Shown: positions 21,526-26,214 of the stretch, in pieces
Layout of the letters: the number at the start of each line of letters is the position of its first letter
Position numbering within the stretch: the stretch's first letter is position 1
DNA from: an uncultured Lachnospiraceae bacterium
GTDB taxonomy: Bacteria > Bacillota > Clostridia > Lachnospirales > Lachnospiraceae
NCBI GenBank assembly: GCA_947089905.1
Contig: CAMUMG010000001.1
Coordinates: 372,001-436,000, forward strand
Length of the DNA: 64,000 bases
Reading direction: 5' to 3'
Notes under the pieces: model-generated
What the model saw: the letters and a program-made list of their open reading frames with translations, nothing else
What the model was told of the DNA's origin: nothing
Databases searched by the model: none
Program-made: the position numbers and the translations under genes

Positions 21526-23409
21526 TTATTTAAAAATTATAACAGAATCTTTTAGTACACGATAATTATCAATGCTATTTCCTATACAATTAATTTCTTT
21601 TAATTCATTTAAAGAAGCTAATGGTGTGAGATCAGTAATATAATTATTTTGAATATCTAATTTTTGGAGCTTTGTTAAACTAGAAAGAGCATTGAGATCT
21701 GCCAACTTATTATCTGCAAGTGTTAAAATTTCTAAGTTTGGAAAATAAGACAAAATATCTAAATGTTTTGCTAATATAATAGTATCATAATCTACCATTG
21801 TAAATGGTCCATCATAGGCTATTTTAACATTTTCATAAAAGGTTGCCCCATCTAAATATAAGCTGGTTAAAGAAGGATTTTCTTTTAACTTAGACAGATC
21901 CAATGCTCCCTCTATTCCATTTAATCGAAGTGTTTTGATTGTTGGGATCAAAAAAACTGTTGTAATATCTTCATAATTAAAATTTCCTCTTAACTCTAAG
22001 GTTTCTAATGCAGATAATTTATTTAAAAATGAAAATTTATTAATATTTCCATAGAGATTACGCATTTTTAATGAGGTTAGGGAAGTTAATCCTGCAAAAT
22101 CAGTAGCAGATTCAACTTCACATGAACTAAGATTTAATTCCTCTAACTGTGTTAAAGAACGTAAAAATGAACTTTTCTTCATTCCAGAAATAGTAAGTTT
22201 CTTTAAAGAAGTAAGCTGTGTTAAATTTGGTTCACTACAAGCATAAGGTACTTCCAAAGAAAGCTCCGTCAGATTTGTTAAACTCTCAATTCCCTTTAAG
22301 TCCTGTAAATTACTAATATCCTCAAGTGTTAAACTGGTCAGATTTTTTAACTTTTTTAATTCATCTACATTTAGTAAATCTGCTTCTACAATAGATAAAT
22401 TTTTTAACTTTTGTAGACTACTTATAAAATTAATACTTCTTAAACTATCTGCTCCTATTTTTAATTCTGTTAAATCAGATAATATAGCAATCATAGAATA
22501 ATCTGTAATTTTATCACAAGATAAAATGGTTAGGCTCTGTAACTTTGGTAAACTTGCCAGTTCTTTTAATTCTGTTAAATTTCTTCCATTTGCAAGATTT
22601 AATATTTGAAGTCCTGAAAATTTTTGAAGTCCAGCCAACGTTTCTATTCCATAGGAAATTGCTAATTCTCTAAGCTGCTCTGGAGTATCTAAGGACTCTG
22701 CAAGTTCTTGTAAGTTATCCGCTTTGCAGGATAAGCCTATCAAAGAAAGTCCTTTTAATGCTCCTTTCGGCAAAGTTCCGTCTAGTTCTAACTTTTTTAA
22801 CCCAGAAAAATTTGTAAGTACAGAATAATCTAATACTACCTCTGAACGAGCAAACTCTAAATAATTTAATTTGGCATCTTGTTTTTCATAAGGATTTTCA
22901 AAACTATATCCTACTTTTACGATATCTTTTGTAGTAGTTAAAGTAATCCATTGAAATTGTTTTAATTCTTCCTCTGTAATTTTTTCCCTGCTTTTATGAA
23001 ATACTTCTTCTGCCATATCTGCAAAAATACCATTTATAACTGTCTCTGTTTTAACTATCATAGTTACTGAATTACTTTTGGCTCCCTGCTCTACCTGTTC
23101 CTTAAAATCTTTCTTTACTTTTGGCTTTATTAAACTGCTAAAGGAAATTAGTATAGCAATTAAAAAAATCACACCTGAAACGATTTTCTTTCCAATACTG
23201 TCTTTATTAGAATTTTCTTGCTGCTGTGGTGCTTCTTTTTGTGTTTTTTTTGTGGGCTGTCCCTGTGGATGTACCCATTGTATTCCTCCTGCATCTGTTT
23301 CGATTAAATATTGAAGTCCACAATAATCACAAACAGCAATAGAAGAATTTTCTTTTAGTACCCGCAAGGTTGCATTACAAGCGGGACACTTTAATTGTGT
23401 CAGTTTCAT
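21526..23409 (-). CDS. Zinc-ribbon / transmembrane / leucine-rich-repeat protein
   Basis: 627 residues. N-terminal zinc ribbon with paired cysteines (C8, C11, C27, C30: KCPACNATL ... VCDYCGLQY), a Gln/Lys-rich linker, a membrane helix at about 75-94 (IVSGVIFLIAILISFSSLI), and from ~180 to the end many LRRs of the form LxxLxxLxLxxx (LTELSLEVPYACS, LQKLDIQNNYITDLTPL). Topology should put the ribbon inside and the LRRs outside, so it could carry an external signal inward or scaffold a complex. The start has AGGAGG 7 nt upstream and lies 13 bp after rsgI, so it is probably part of the sigI-rsgI operon. I know of no characterised protein with this architecture. Confidence 0.8.
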   Translation of the reverse strand: MKLTQLKCPACNATLRVLKENSSIAVCDYCGLQYLIETDAGGIQWVHPQGQPTKKTQKEAPQQQENSNKDSIGKKIVSGVIFLIAILISFSSLIKPKVKKDFKEQVEQGAKSNSVTMIVKTETVINGIFADMAEEVFHKSREKITEEELKQFQWITLTTTKDIVKVGYSFENPYEKQDAKLNYLEFARSEVVLDYSVLTNFSGLKKLELDGTLPKGALKGLSLIGLSCKADNLQELAESLDTPEQLRELAISYGIETLAGLQKFSGLQILNLANGRNLTELKELASLPKLQSLTILSCDKITDYSMIAILSDLTELKIGADSLRSINFISSLQKLKNLSIVEADLLNVDELKKLKNLTSLTLEDISNLQDLKGIESLTNLTELSLEVPYACSEPNLTQLTSLKKLTISGMKKSSFLRSLTQLEELNLSSCEVESATDFAGLTSLTSLKMRNLYGNINKFSFLNKLSALETLELRGNFNYEDITTVFLIPTIKTLRLNGIEGALDLSKLKENPSLTSLYLDGATFYENVKIAYDGPFTMVDYDTIILAKHLDILSYFPNLEILTLADNKLADLNALSSLTKLQKLDIQNNYITDLTPLASLNELKEINCIGNSIDNYRVLKDSVIIFK

Positions 23410-23422
23410 AACTTTCCTCCTA

Positions 23423-24247
23423 CTATTCTATATGGTGTCCACTTCCATGATGATCTTTCCATAATTCTGGAGTTGGGGTTGGTTCTATTGATGGTTCTAT
23501 TGATGGTTTTATTGATGGTTCTATTGACGGTTCTAGTATTGTCATATCATTATCTGGTATATTATACTCTTCTAACTCTTCTTTTAATTGTATGATACTT
23601 TTATTACAGTTATCTTCTATAGATAAATTTGGATTCGCTGCTTTTAATTTGTTTAAATAGATATATTTTCCTGCTGTCACCTTAAACTCTTTCGCTGCTT
23701 TTAAAATATCTTCCTTAACAGTATAACATTCTAAATTTTCTTGTAACATTACATCAGATACTACCCGATGTAATTCCCATAACAAAATATTTTCATTCTT
23801 CTCTTTTTTTGCCCATACAGTTAAAACAATCAAAGGATTATTTTCTAAATATCCGTATTCCTTTTCTTTCTCTAATACTTCTGTTACTGCATCTATATAG
23901 TTTTTATACTTTATCTTTAATCCTCTAATACATTCATATCCCTCTTCATTCAGTGCTCGAACCTCTATTACACGATGTAGACGATTTAATACAATTTCAA
24001 CAGATGGATTTACATCTAAACTGATTACTGCTGCCTTTTGAACAAAAAAGAAACCAAATAATCCAATACAAATGATAGCAGCACATCCTATTGCTGCAAG
24101 TTTTAATTTCCAAGATGCTCTGTCTTTTAACAGCACTAAATCTCCTATCTGCCATCCTTCTCTTGCTCGGACAGTCTGAAATTTTCCACCTGCCAGTAAA
24201 ATTTGTGCATTTCCATCTGATATGTTTAAAACAATTCCTGTTTTCAC
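23423..24247 (-). CDS. rsgI: RsgI-type anti-sigma factor
   Basis: 274 residues from a GTG start behind GGAGGT. The cytoplasmic N-terminus (about 1-45, GIVLNISDGNAQILLAGGKF) is the RsgI anti-sigma domain that binds SigI; a membrane helix follows at 49-70 (LKLAAIGCAAIICIGLFGFF), then the conserved outer VISLDVNPSVEIVLNR. The tail is a low-complexity PSIEP repeat ending in His/Gly residues. In Clostridium thermocellum, RsgI tails often carry carbohydrate-binding domains; none is recognisable here, so the sensed signal is unclear. It follows sigI by 25 bp. Confidence 0.9.
   Translation of the reverse strand: MKTGIVLNISDGNAQILLAGGKFQTVRAREGWQIGDLVLLKDRASWKLKLAAIGCAAIICIGLFGFFFVQKAAVISLDVNPSVEIVLNRLHRVIEVRALNEEGYECIRGLKIKYKNYIDAVTEVLEKEKEYGYLENNPLIVLTVWAKKEKNENILLWELHRVVSDVMLQENLECYTVKEDILKAAKEFKVTAGKYIYLNKLKAANPNLSIEDNCNKSIIQLKEELEEYNIPDNDMTILEPSIEPSIKPSIEPSIEPTPTPELWKDHHGSGHHIE
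23480..23536 (-). repeat. 12-bp tandem repeat encoding PSIE units in rsgI
   Basis: About five imperfect copies of a 12-bp unit (ATTGATGGTTCT on the plus strand) encode PSIEPSIKPSIEPSIE in the RsgI tail. In-frame units of this kind can change number by slippage without breaking the gene. Confidence 0.8.
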
Positions 24248-24947: not shown

Positions 24948-25131
24948 TCCTACTCCTCCAGATAAGAAAAATTTTTAAAAATTTTTTCTTACCCTATGAA
25001 ATCCGATTACTTCCTTCGTATTCTATTTATGTAAGAAACTTATCACAGCCAATTATATTATATCATATTTTTTATTGAAAGAACAGAGTGTTTGTTTCTT
25101 ACAAAATAAAAAGAAAGAAGGGATTTTAATC

Positions 25132-25521
25132 ATGATTCACAAAAAATTAGCTGCATCTTTATTTGCCTGTGCACTTATCTTCACTGTAGGGGGCAGTATT
25201 GCTGTACCTGCAGCTGCAAAGACTACAAAAACTGTAAAAACTACTGCCACAGCTCTTCCTCATTGTACGATAGAAGACTGTAATATCATGAAAGATCATT
25301 GGCATGATGGCGTTTGCTATGATGGTCATTTTCTGGATGACGGATGTGACTGGCATGTTGCCTGTGATGTAGACGGCTGCTATCTTACAACAGAACATGA
25401 ACATGATGGTATCATCTGTATGGGACATTGTGCTACAGATGGTCATTCTTGGCATACTACAAGTCATCATAGTTCAAGACGTGGACATTGTGGAAGTAGT
25501 AGAGGTCACGGCTGCCATTAA
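25132..25521 (+). CDS. Secreted His/Cys-rich repeat protein, putative metal-binding
   Basis: 129 residues. Signal peptide KKLAASLFACALIFTVGGS with likely cleavage near AVPAAA|K. After a Thr/Lys linker the mature part holds 10 Cys and 15 His in two degenerate repeats of about 31 residues: C-x4-C-x5-H-x-H-D-G ... G-H-x3-D-G-x2-W-H (CTIEDCNIMKDHWHDGVC and CDVDGCYLTTEHEHDGIIC), then a His/Ser/Gly tail ending GHGCH. The pattern suggests extracellular zinc or copper binding; this is inferred from composition. I do not recognise a named family. Start chosen at MIHKK, after AAGAAGGGATTTTAATC. Divergent from sigI; an IS-like repeat begins right after the stop. Confidence 0.75.
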   Translation: MIHKKLAASLFACALIFTVGGSIAVPAAAKTTKTVKTTATALPHCTIEDCNIMKDHWHDGVCYDGHFLDDGCDWHVACDVDGCYLTTEHEHDGIICMGHCATDGHSWHTTSHHSSRRGHCGSSRGHGCH

Positions 25522-25522
25522 G

Positions 25523-25640
25523 TTTAACAATTAACAGCAAGGATTCCCCTTCCTCTTAGGTAGGGGAGGAATTGCTAGGAACAAGTATATGAAGAATCCA
25601 CATCATTGTCTTGCTCTTAACTGTCGCAAGTGAATTGAAA
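25523..25640 (+). repeat. Dispersed structured repeat, copy A
   Basis: 118 bp directly after the His/Cys-rich gene, closely matching the reverse complement of 42922-43044. It contains an imperfect hairpin (GGATTCCCCTTCC ... GGGGAGGAATT) and a second one (AGGAACAAG ... CTTGCTCTT around an inner ATGA/TCAT pair). The first resembles the end hairpins of IS200/IS605-type elements, so it may be a MITE-like derivative. No transposase lies beside it. Confidence 0.8.
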
Positions 25641-25698
25641 CAAATTTTTTTCATAGTTTTTGTTTTCCTACATAGGATATAAAAAAAAGGAATTGCCT

Positions 25699-26214
25699 AT
25701 GCAGGAAAACACATCTATTGAATATGCTGCTAATGCTCCCTATCCTCCTGTCTGTGTTCATGAGCGTAATCCAAAATATGCTGCATGGATGTTAGATAAT
25801 GTTGGAGGACAGAGATCGGAAATGTCAGCGGTTTCATTATATTTTTATAATCGTCTCATAACAGAAGAATGTGGCAATGAGCTATCAGAAGCGTTTCACA
25901 AAATTAGTATTGTAGAAATGCACCATTTAGAAATTTTCGGAAAACTTGCCTGCCTACTAGGAGAAGATCCAAGACTTTGGACTATTTCAAGACGTTCGAA
26001 AGTTTACTGGAGTCCGGGATACAATCAATATCCAAAACACCTTCCTGTTTTATTAAAAAATGCACTCAATGCAGAACTGACAACGATTGAAAAATATGAA
26101 AATCAGACTGCACATATTCAAGATCCGGCAATTACAGCAATTTTACAGCGGATTATCTTAGATGAAAAACTACATGTTTCTATTTTAGAAAAGATGCTTG
26201 GTTGTTTAAAATAA
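25699..26214 (+). CDS. Ferritin-like diiron protein
   Basis: 171 residues from MQENTS. The four metal-ligand positions of a rubrerythrin/ferritin-like four-helix bundle are in order: E in GGQRSEMSAVSLYFYNR, E-x-x-H in VEMHHLEIFGKL, E in NALNAELTTIEKYE, and E-x-x-H in LDEKLHVSILEKM. It probably handles peroxide or iron in the cytoplasm. There is no C-terminal rubredoxin domain, so it is a 'short' member. Start has AAGGAATTGCCT just before ATG; an upstream ATG at 25660 adds 13 residues. A terminator follows the stop. Confidence 0.82.
   Translation: MQENTSIEYAANAPYPPVCVHERNPKYAAWMLDNVGGQRSEMSAVSLYFYNRLITEECGNELSEAFHKISIVEMHHLEIFGKLACLLGEDPRLWTISRRSKVYWSPGYNQYPKHLPVLLKNALNAELTTIEKYENQTAHIQDPAITAILQRIILDEKLHVSILEKMLGCLK

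Follow-up and report, generated by a model that had tools for sequence, protein, structure and literature searches.

A small secreted cysteine/histidine repeat protein as the predicted output of a SigI-RsgI module in a member of the Lachnospiraceae

In the stretch of 64,000 nucleotides analysed here ('the window'), which comes from an uncultured Lachnospiraceae bacterium, a short gene for a secreted protein rich in histidine and cysteine (P0001) lies divergent from a sigI gene. This raises two questions: whether the neighbouring sigma factor controls the gene and what its product does at the cell surface. A sequence-only reading had found no named family for the protein, suggested a metal scavenger or sensor and proposed the gene as a candidate for SigI control. 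The features of the locus are collected in Table 1.

Table 1. Features of the P0001 locus (window positions)
Feature	Position	Strand	Remarks
LRR protein gene	21526-23409	-	13 nt 3' of rsgI, likely same operon
rsgI, anti-sigma factor, 274 aa	23423-24247	-	RsgI_N, TM, RsgI_M, Pro-rich linker, His-bearing tail
RsgI extracellular C-terminus DHHGSGHHIE	23426-23455	-	putative sensor tail
RsgI Pro-rich EPSIEPSIKPSIEPSIEPTPTPE linker	about 23475-23533	-	before the His tail; like a wall-spanning spacer
RsgI D-V-N-P-S, residues 78-82	24002-24016	-	expected autocleavage site, between N and P
sigI, divergent SigI, 224 aa	24273-24947	-	TIGR02895, Sigma70_r2, SigI tree
SigI-type promoter ACCCTATGAAATCCGATTACTTCCTTCGTA	24991-25020	+	faces the secreted gene; -35 side ACCCTATGAAA 24991-25001; -10 CGTA 25017-25020
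P0001, secreted His/Cys repeat protein, 129 aa	25132-25521	+	includes stop codon
P0001 signal peptide, residues 1-29	25132-25218	+	cleavage after PAAA; from translation
P0001 repeat 1	25258-25356	+	C-x4-C-x5-HxHDG-x2-Y-x-GH...DGCDWH
P0001 repeat 2	25357-25455	+	C-x4-C-x5-HxHDG...GH...DGHSWH
P0001 His-rich C-terminal tail TTSHHSSRRGHCGSSRGHGCH	25456-25518	+	from translation
Ferritin-like/Mn-catalase-like/rubrerythrin-like protein gene	25696-26214	+	about 175 bp 3' of the secreted gene; Pfam Rubrerythrin and Mn_catalase above cut-off

The secreted protein and its repeat family

The reading frame is exact (ATG at 25132, stop at 25519-25521) and a GAAGG ribosome-binding site lies directly 5' of it. 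An antisense ORF of 103 aa (25159-25470) is found opposite the gene; the conserved frame is the sense one. The signal peptide, judged by eye, consists of HKK, a hydrophobic core and VPAAA followed by K. Neither a lipobox nor an LPXTG motif is present in P0001. The full-length protein contains 11 Cys and 16 His, and the 10 Cys and 15 His counted earlier for a 129-residue exported protein are those of its mature part. The two repeats described at that time were recovered, with a spacing of 33 residues instead of about 31: C-x4-C-x5-H-x-H-D-G occupies residues 45-60 and 78-93, and D-G-x2-W-H ends each repeat. When the mature protein was shuffled 100,000 times, one copy of the motif arose in 22 cases and two copies in none.

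As the sequence-only reading had supposed, no named family could be attributed: there was no match in Pfam, PHROGs or PDB, none above cut-off in NCBIfam, and tblastn gave no match to phages. A single-sequence search of the genome contigs with P0001 was also empty and, at the level of the phylum, few genomes have the family (3 of 398 by a repeat profile). Searches anchored on SigI and RsgI were therefore used. In the host family, whole-genome searches put the number of genomes with related secreted repeat proteins at up to 20 of 397; the weakest cases among them are doubtful.

P0001 belongs to an unnamed repeat family. Its strong homologues carry between one and about twelve repeats of the form C-x4-C-x4,6-H-x-H-[DNS]-G-x2-Y-x-[GA]-[HY], often with HGHGHG directly behind the signal peptide, and most of those in the SigI clade described below also have a His-rich tail. 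The conserved positions are residues of ligand type: C5, C10, H16 and H18 are invariant across 22 aligned family repeats, as is G20 among the 10 repeats from the SigI clade. For the repeat gene, congeners in Diplocloster give a dN/dS of 0.24 and those in Hungatella one of 0.18, compared with 0.10 for SigI. These ratios indicate that the homologues evolve under purifying selection and argue that the P0001 gene is neither spurious nor decaying, the suspicion to which a lack of homologues would have led.

Most homologues in the wider family have no adjoining sigma factor. One of them, with five repeats (L034), is flanked on one side by a BlaI/CopY-like repressor and on the other by a BlaR1-like sensor protease, an example of the same family beside a different regulator.

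Metallothioneins carry CxC/CxxC arrays and the pneumococcal histidine-triad proteins HxxHxH motifs. P0001 resembles both in its repeated short motifs rich in Cys or His, but C-x4-C-x5-H-x-HDG fits neither arrangement and there was no profile match. AF2 models a single repeat (pLDDT 74) with a beta-hairpin at HxH-DG-xxY, while the model of the whole protein is poor (pLDDT 50). A Foldseek search with the single-repeat model returned no solved relative and one meaningless match.

Linkage to SigI and RsgI

The best match of the window SigI is to TIGR02895 (spore_sigI; E = 1.7e-47 over residues 8-223, 162 bits against a cut-off of 185), and Sigma70_r2 is above cut-off; the protein is therefore treated as a divergent SigI. 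A SigI profile scan of 84,980 species gave 42 loci, and 43 SigIs were compared. In the tree, the window SigI falls within a clade of 15 (support 100/99) that contains an inner clade of 12 (97/92). This clade covers Lachnospiraceae, Oscillospiraceae, Anaerovoracaceae and a Treponema MAG, and shows three gene arrangements. Of the 15 clade loci, 10 have a repeat gene, whereas the 28 other SigI loci have none (p 1.6e-6). Within the 397 genomes of the host family, a divergent secreted protein of the repeat type is found at five of the six loci with the closest SigIs (the window included) and at 0 of 24 more distant ones (Fisher 4e-5); in both comparisons the loci are not phylogenetically independent.

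The clade loci with repeat genes include those of Diplocloster, Hungatella, Bacilliculturomica, Oscillospiraceae and the Treponema MAG. In the last of these (L088) the repeat protein is a predicted lipoprotein with a lipobox-like AAMVGC and its gene lies 3' of rsgI; at another locus (L079) the repeat gene and sigI share one strand. Three loci (L080, L084 and L086) carry other small secreted proteins instead, two of which are rich in Cys and His.

Published SigI promoters have the form ACCCCC--AA-15N-CGAA in Bacillales and CCCYYAAA-13/14N-CGWA for sigma-I3 of C. thermocellum (PMC4711584), and the geometry of the window promoter agrees with these consensuses. The pattern ACCC[CT]-N20/21-CGTA faces the secreted gene at 10 of the 11 divergent clade loci, where dinucleotide shuffles would lead one to expect 0.015; since it was first spotted in the window and in L048, these two are not independent tests, and the remaining loci are. 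The eleventh divergent locus (L081) has a CCCC variant in place of ACCC. At L079 the promoter has moved strand with the relocated repeat gene, which it precedes, and a near-match is present at L088. About half of the loci have a matching promoter oriented towards sigI as well; none was found facing sigI in the window. Upstream of 13 repeat genes that do not adjoin sigI, the only match was an unconvincing one (L044, a GCCC form 265 nt upstream).

The window site is the single match to ACCCYAYG-N17/18-CGTA in the host genome of 3.06 Mb, and several relatives have one or two genomic matches, one of which is at the secreted-gene locus. Judged by this scarcity, SigI appears to act mainly, and perhaps solely, on the secreted gene. 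A promoter of SigI type upstream (-35 ACCC/CCC.. and -10 CGWA, with about 19-20 nt between them), as found here, is the mark of a SigI regulon member, and the predicted control of the P0001 gene by SigI is strongly supported. The earlier proposal of such control is backed by the conservation of the promoter and by the association of the repeat gene with a single SigI clade across genera and phyla.

The product of the adjoining rsgI gene was identified by its RsgI_M domain (4.1e-26, 92.6 bits; cut-off 25.3), its position beside sigI and its DVNPS motif, the RsgI_N match being marginal (24.4 bits against 25). The D, N, P and S of D-x-N-P-S are invariant among 10 aligned RsgI-like proteins. In C. 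thermocellum, the periplasmic domain of RsgI autocleaves, RseP then makes an intramembrane cut and a Clp protease completes the process (PMC12203970). By homology, autocleavage and RseP-type processing would be expected of the window RsgI.

The C-terminal end is rich in histidine in the clade: the median number of His in the last 60 residues of RsgI is 6, compared with 1 at other SigI loci (p 3e-6). Two motifs are shared by most clade RsgIs: one like AHxH, which precedes T-x-GKY, and H-[HC]-S-I-x-E-I, right before the tail. In the window RsgI the conserved histidines of both motifs (AHxH and H[HC]SI) are missing, and DHHGSGHHIE, with four tail His only, is what remains. In two spirochaete MAGs the anti-sigma partners of clade-related SigIs (L087, 1055-1360; L088, 2409-3056) have no D-x-N-P; that of L087 is only 101 aa long, with a C-terminal SGHGRHGRMMERRWW. 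These two proteins may be tail-only sensors.

As described earlier, P0001 is divergent from sigI, which is followed by rsgI and the LRR gene, all on the reverse strand. The idea of a sigI-rsgI-LRR operon stands as far as the gene order in the window is concerned; the relatives inspected showed no LRR gene next to sigI. The LRR protein has an N-terminal zinc-ribbon-like segment (CPxC..CDYC) and an apparent TM segment. On the other side, a strong hairpin (GCAAGGATTCCCC...GGGGAGGAATTGC, 25537-25580; regional fold z -2.4) lies 3' of the P0001 stop codon; it lacks the T-run typical of intrinsic terminators. The LRR and ferritin-like genes were set aside as parts of the module because they are not conserved. 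The name spore_sigI and a CotJC-like neighbour brought a spore-coat protein into consideration; this was rejected on the grounds of the signal peptide of P0001 and the lack of conservation of the neighbour.

Related modules with ECF sigma factors

The anti-sigma profile of the clade was run on 299 family genomes and matched 68. Among the best-scoring loci, a gene for an ECF sigma factor of about 160 aa is followed by one for an RsgI_M anti-sigma, and the product of the gene that precedes the sigma gene is small, secreted and rich either in Cys/His or in DGICD motifs. About 25 further operons of an ECF sigma and an RsgI-like anti-sigma were found, most of them with a partner of the DGICD type or otherwise rich in Cys and His. 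At two loci (L032 and L138) a P0001-type repeat protein is encoded by the first gene of the ECF-sigma and RsgI_M operon. A set of Lachnospiraceae loci (L143-L168) shows the order secreted DGICDxC or Cys/His-rich protein, ECF sigma, RsgI_M anti-sigma. At L163 the RsgI_M anti-sigma has no tail His, and a secreted partner was looked for at the locus and not found.

The ECF operons have a common promoter close to TGAAWGGATT-N11-ATCGTATTA directly before the secreted gene. With the strict form of this pattern, each of 25 such genomes gives 0 or 1 match, mostly at the module operon. In a comparison of 36 modules, secreted proteins with a larger fraction of His go with anti-sigma tails that have more His (rho 0.68; 0.71 for ECF modules only); the relationship is partly clade-structured, and these loci too are not phylogenetically independent. 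Among the modules compared, there was no correlation of secreted-protein His with the His of the sigma factor, with those of the anti-sigma core or with GC. Taken together, these loci represent a larger class of sigma/RsgI_M modules, each with a secreted partner of its own, that has apparently not been described before. We found no description in the literature of a His-tailed RsgI or of the secreted repeat family, although an earlier mention in papers on RsgI autocleavage is possible.

The probable ligand and what the module would mean

On balance, we think that P0001 is the output of a self-contained SigI-RsgI surface-response module, the ligand of which is probably a metal. RsgI would lie in the membrane, its extracellular RsgI_M self-cleaving at Asn-Pro and its His-bearing tail directed outward. 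The tail/RsgI_M region would sense the ligand, most likely a divalent transition metal, and this would lead to intramembrane proteolysis of RsgI and release of SigI. Free SigI would then transcribe the divergent gene from ACCCTA-N20-CGTA. The secreted repeats, with their Cys2-His2-rich sites, and the His-rich tail of P0001 would bind the same ligand at the surface, and its buffering or capture would close a feedback loop. The response may be to an excess or to a scarcity of the metal. Several observations weigh against this reading: the few tail histidines of the window RsgI and its lack of those conserved in the clade, the missing SigI-type promoter towards its sigI, the L163 locus, and the many wider homologues with neither a sigma factor nor a metal-transport gene next to them.

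A divalent metal is the most likely candidate for the putative ligand of both P0001 and RsgI. One homologue of the repeat family (L045) adjoins a Cd/Zn-type P-ATPase (TIGR01512 above cut-off), another (L138) adjoins a GDT1 cation/proton antiporter, and the Diplocloster repeat gene has cbiMNQO at some distance. Such neighbours are a minority, most repeat-family homologues being without them. The neighbours of these few homologues and the His-rich RsgI tails provide circumstantial support for the metal scavenger or sensor suggested earlier, and metal binding and metal sensing form the leading reading.

The RsgI-SigI system of B. subtilis is reportedly tied to cell-wall homeostasis, and a similar role could be proposed here: the tail would sense the state of the envelope and P0001 would be a wall-associated protective or structural protein, its histidines being incidental or related to pH. 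This would be in keeping with the likeness of the Pro-rich EPSI linker in the window RsgI to a wall-spanning spacer and with the BlaI/BlaR1-like genes on both sides of one homologue. However, it explains neither the specific enrichment of the tails in His nor the way in which this follows the His content of the partner, and a search for a wall-binding domain in the secreted protein found none. We regard an envelope-stress role as unlikely.

The position of the co-directional ferritin-like/Mn-catalase-like gene next to that of P0001, and the fact that an anaerobe exports a protein with 10 Cys, could suggest instead that the cysteines scavenge oxidants or electrophiles and that the ferritin-like protein takes part in the same response. 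This is improbable: the ferritin-like gene has its own upstream region, with the hairpin intervening, and is not beside the module in inspected relatives (Diplocloster has an esterase and cbi genes, Hungatella an ABC-F-type ATPase), and the repeat His are conserved to the same degree as the Cys. A bacteriocin-type antimicrobial or competition peptide is more improbable still, for P0001 is indeed small, exported and Cys-rich, but membership of BLB8/JUQZ-1 was rejected (NF053514, 17 bits against a cut-off of 40, a match to residues 4-53 that is mostly signal peptide) and immunity, exporter and maturation genes are absent beside the P0001 gene and its homologues.

The proposed module shares with the SigI-RsgI systems of C. 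thermocellum and B. subtilis a SigI-type sigma factor, an RsgI_M domain with D-x-N-P-S, the sigI-rsgI pair and the A/CCC...CGWA promoter geometry. In C. thermocellum, the RsgIs end in carbohydrate-binding modules and control cellulosome genes, whereas the window RsgI has a short His-bearing tail and the sole genomic match to its promoter motif precedes one small secreted His/Cys protein. In metal systems of the CnrH-CnrYX type, an ECF sigma factor is controlled by a membrane anti-sigma and an exported protein rich in metal ligands. The likeness to these is one of working only. The module differs from them in its Gram-positive host, in its self-cleaving RsgI_M anti-sigma and in that the secreted protein is, in most copies, encoded by the target gene and is not a membrane-bound co-sensor.

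The recurrence of protein, promoter and regulator together in distant bacteria points to an undescribed surface sensing-and-binding module. More tentatively, there may be a widespread class of such modules in gut Clostridia, present also in a Treponema MAG, in which a His-tailed, self-cleaving RsgI_M protein and a SigI or ECF sigma factor would have essentially a single target, their own secreted ligand binder rich in Cys, His and Asp. Tail and effector would bind the same metal and co-evolve, and the type of sigma factor would have been swapped while sensor and effector were kept.

SigI-RsgI systems are known for the sensing of polysaccharides and of the state of the envelope. The present work names an unclassified repeat family and predicts its promoter base by base. 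If the proposal is true, the self-cleaving anti-sigma machinery would have been recruited in common gut bacteria for the sensing of metal ions at the surface, with one dedicated secreted output, and its ECF version, found here in roughly 25 Lachnospiraceae genera, would be a common and so far unnoticed surface-response system of the gut.
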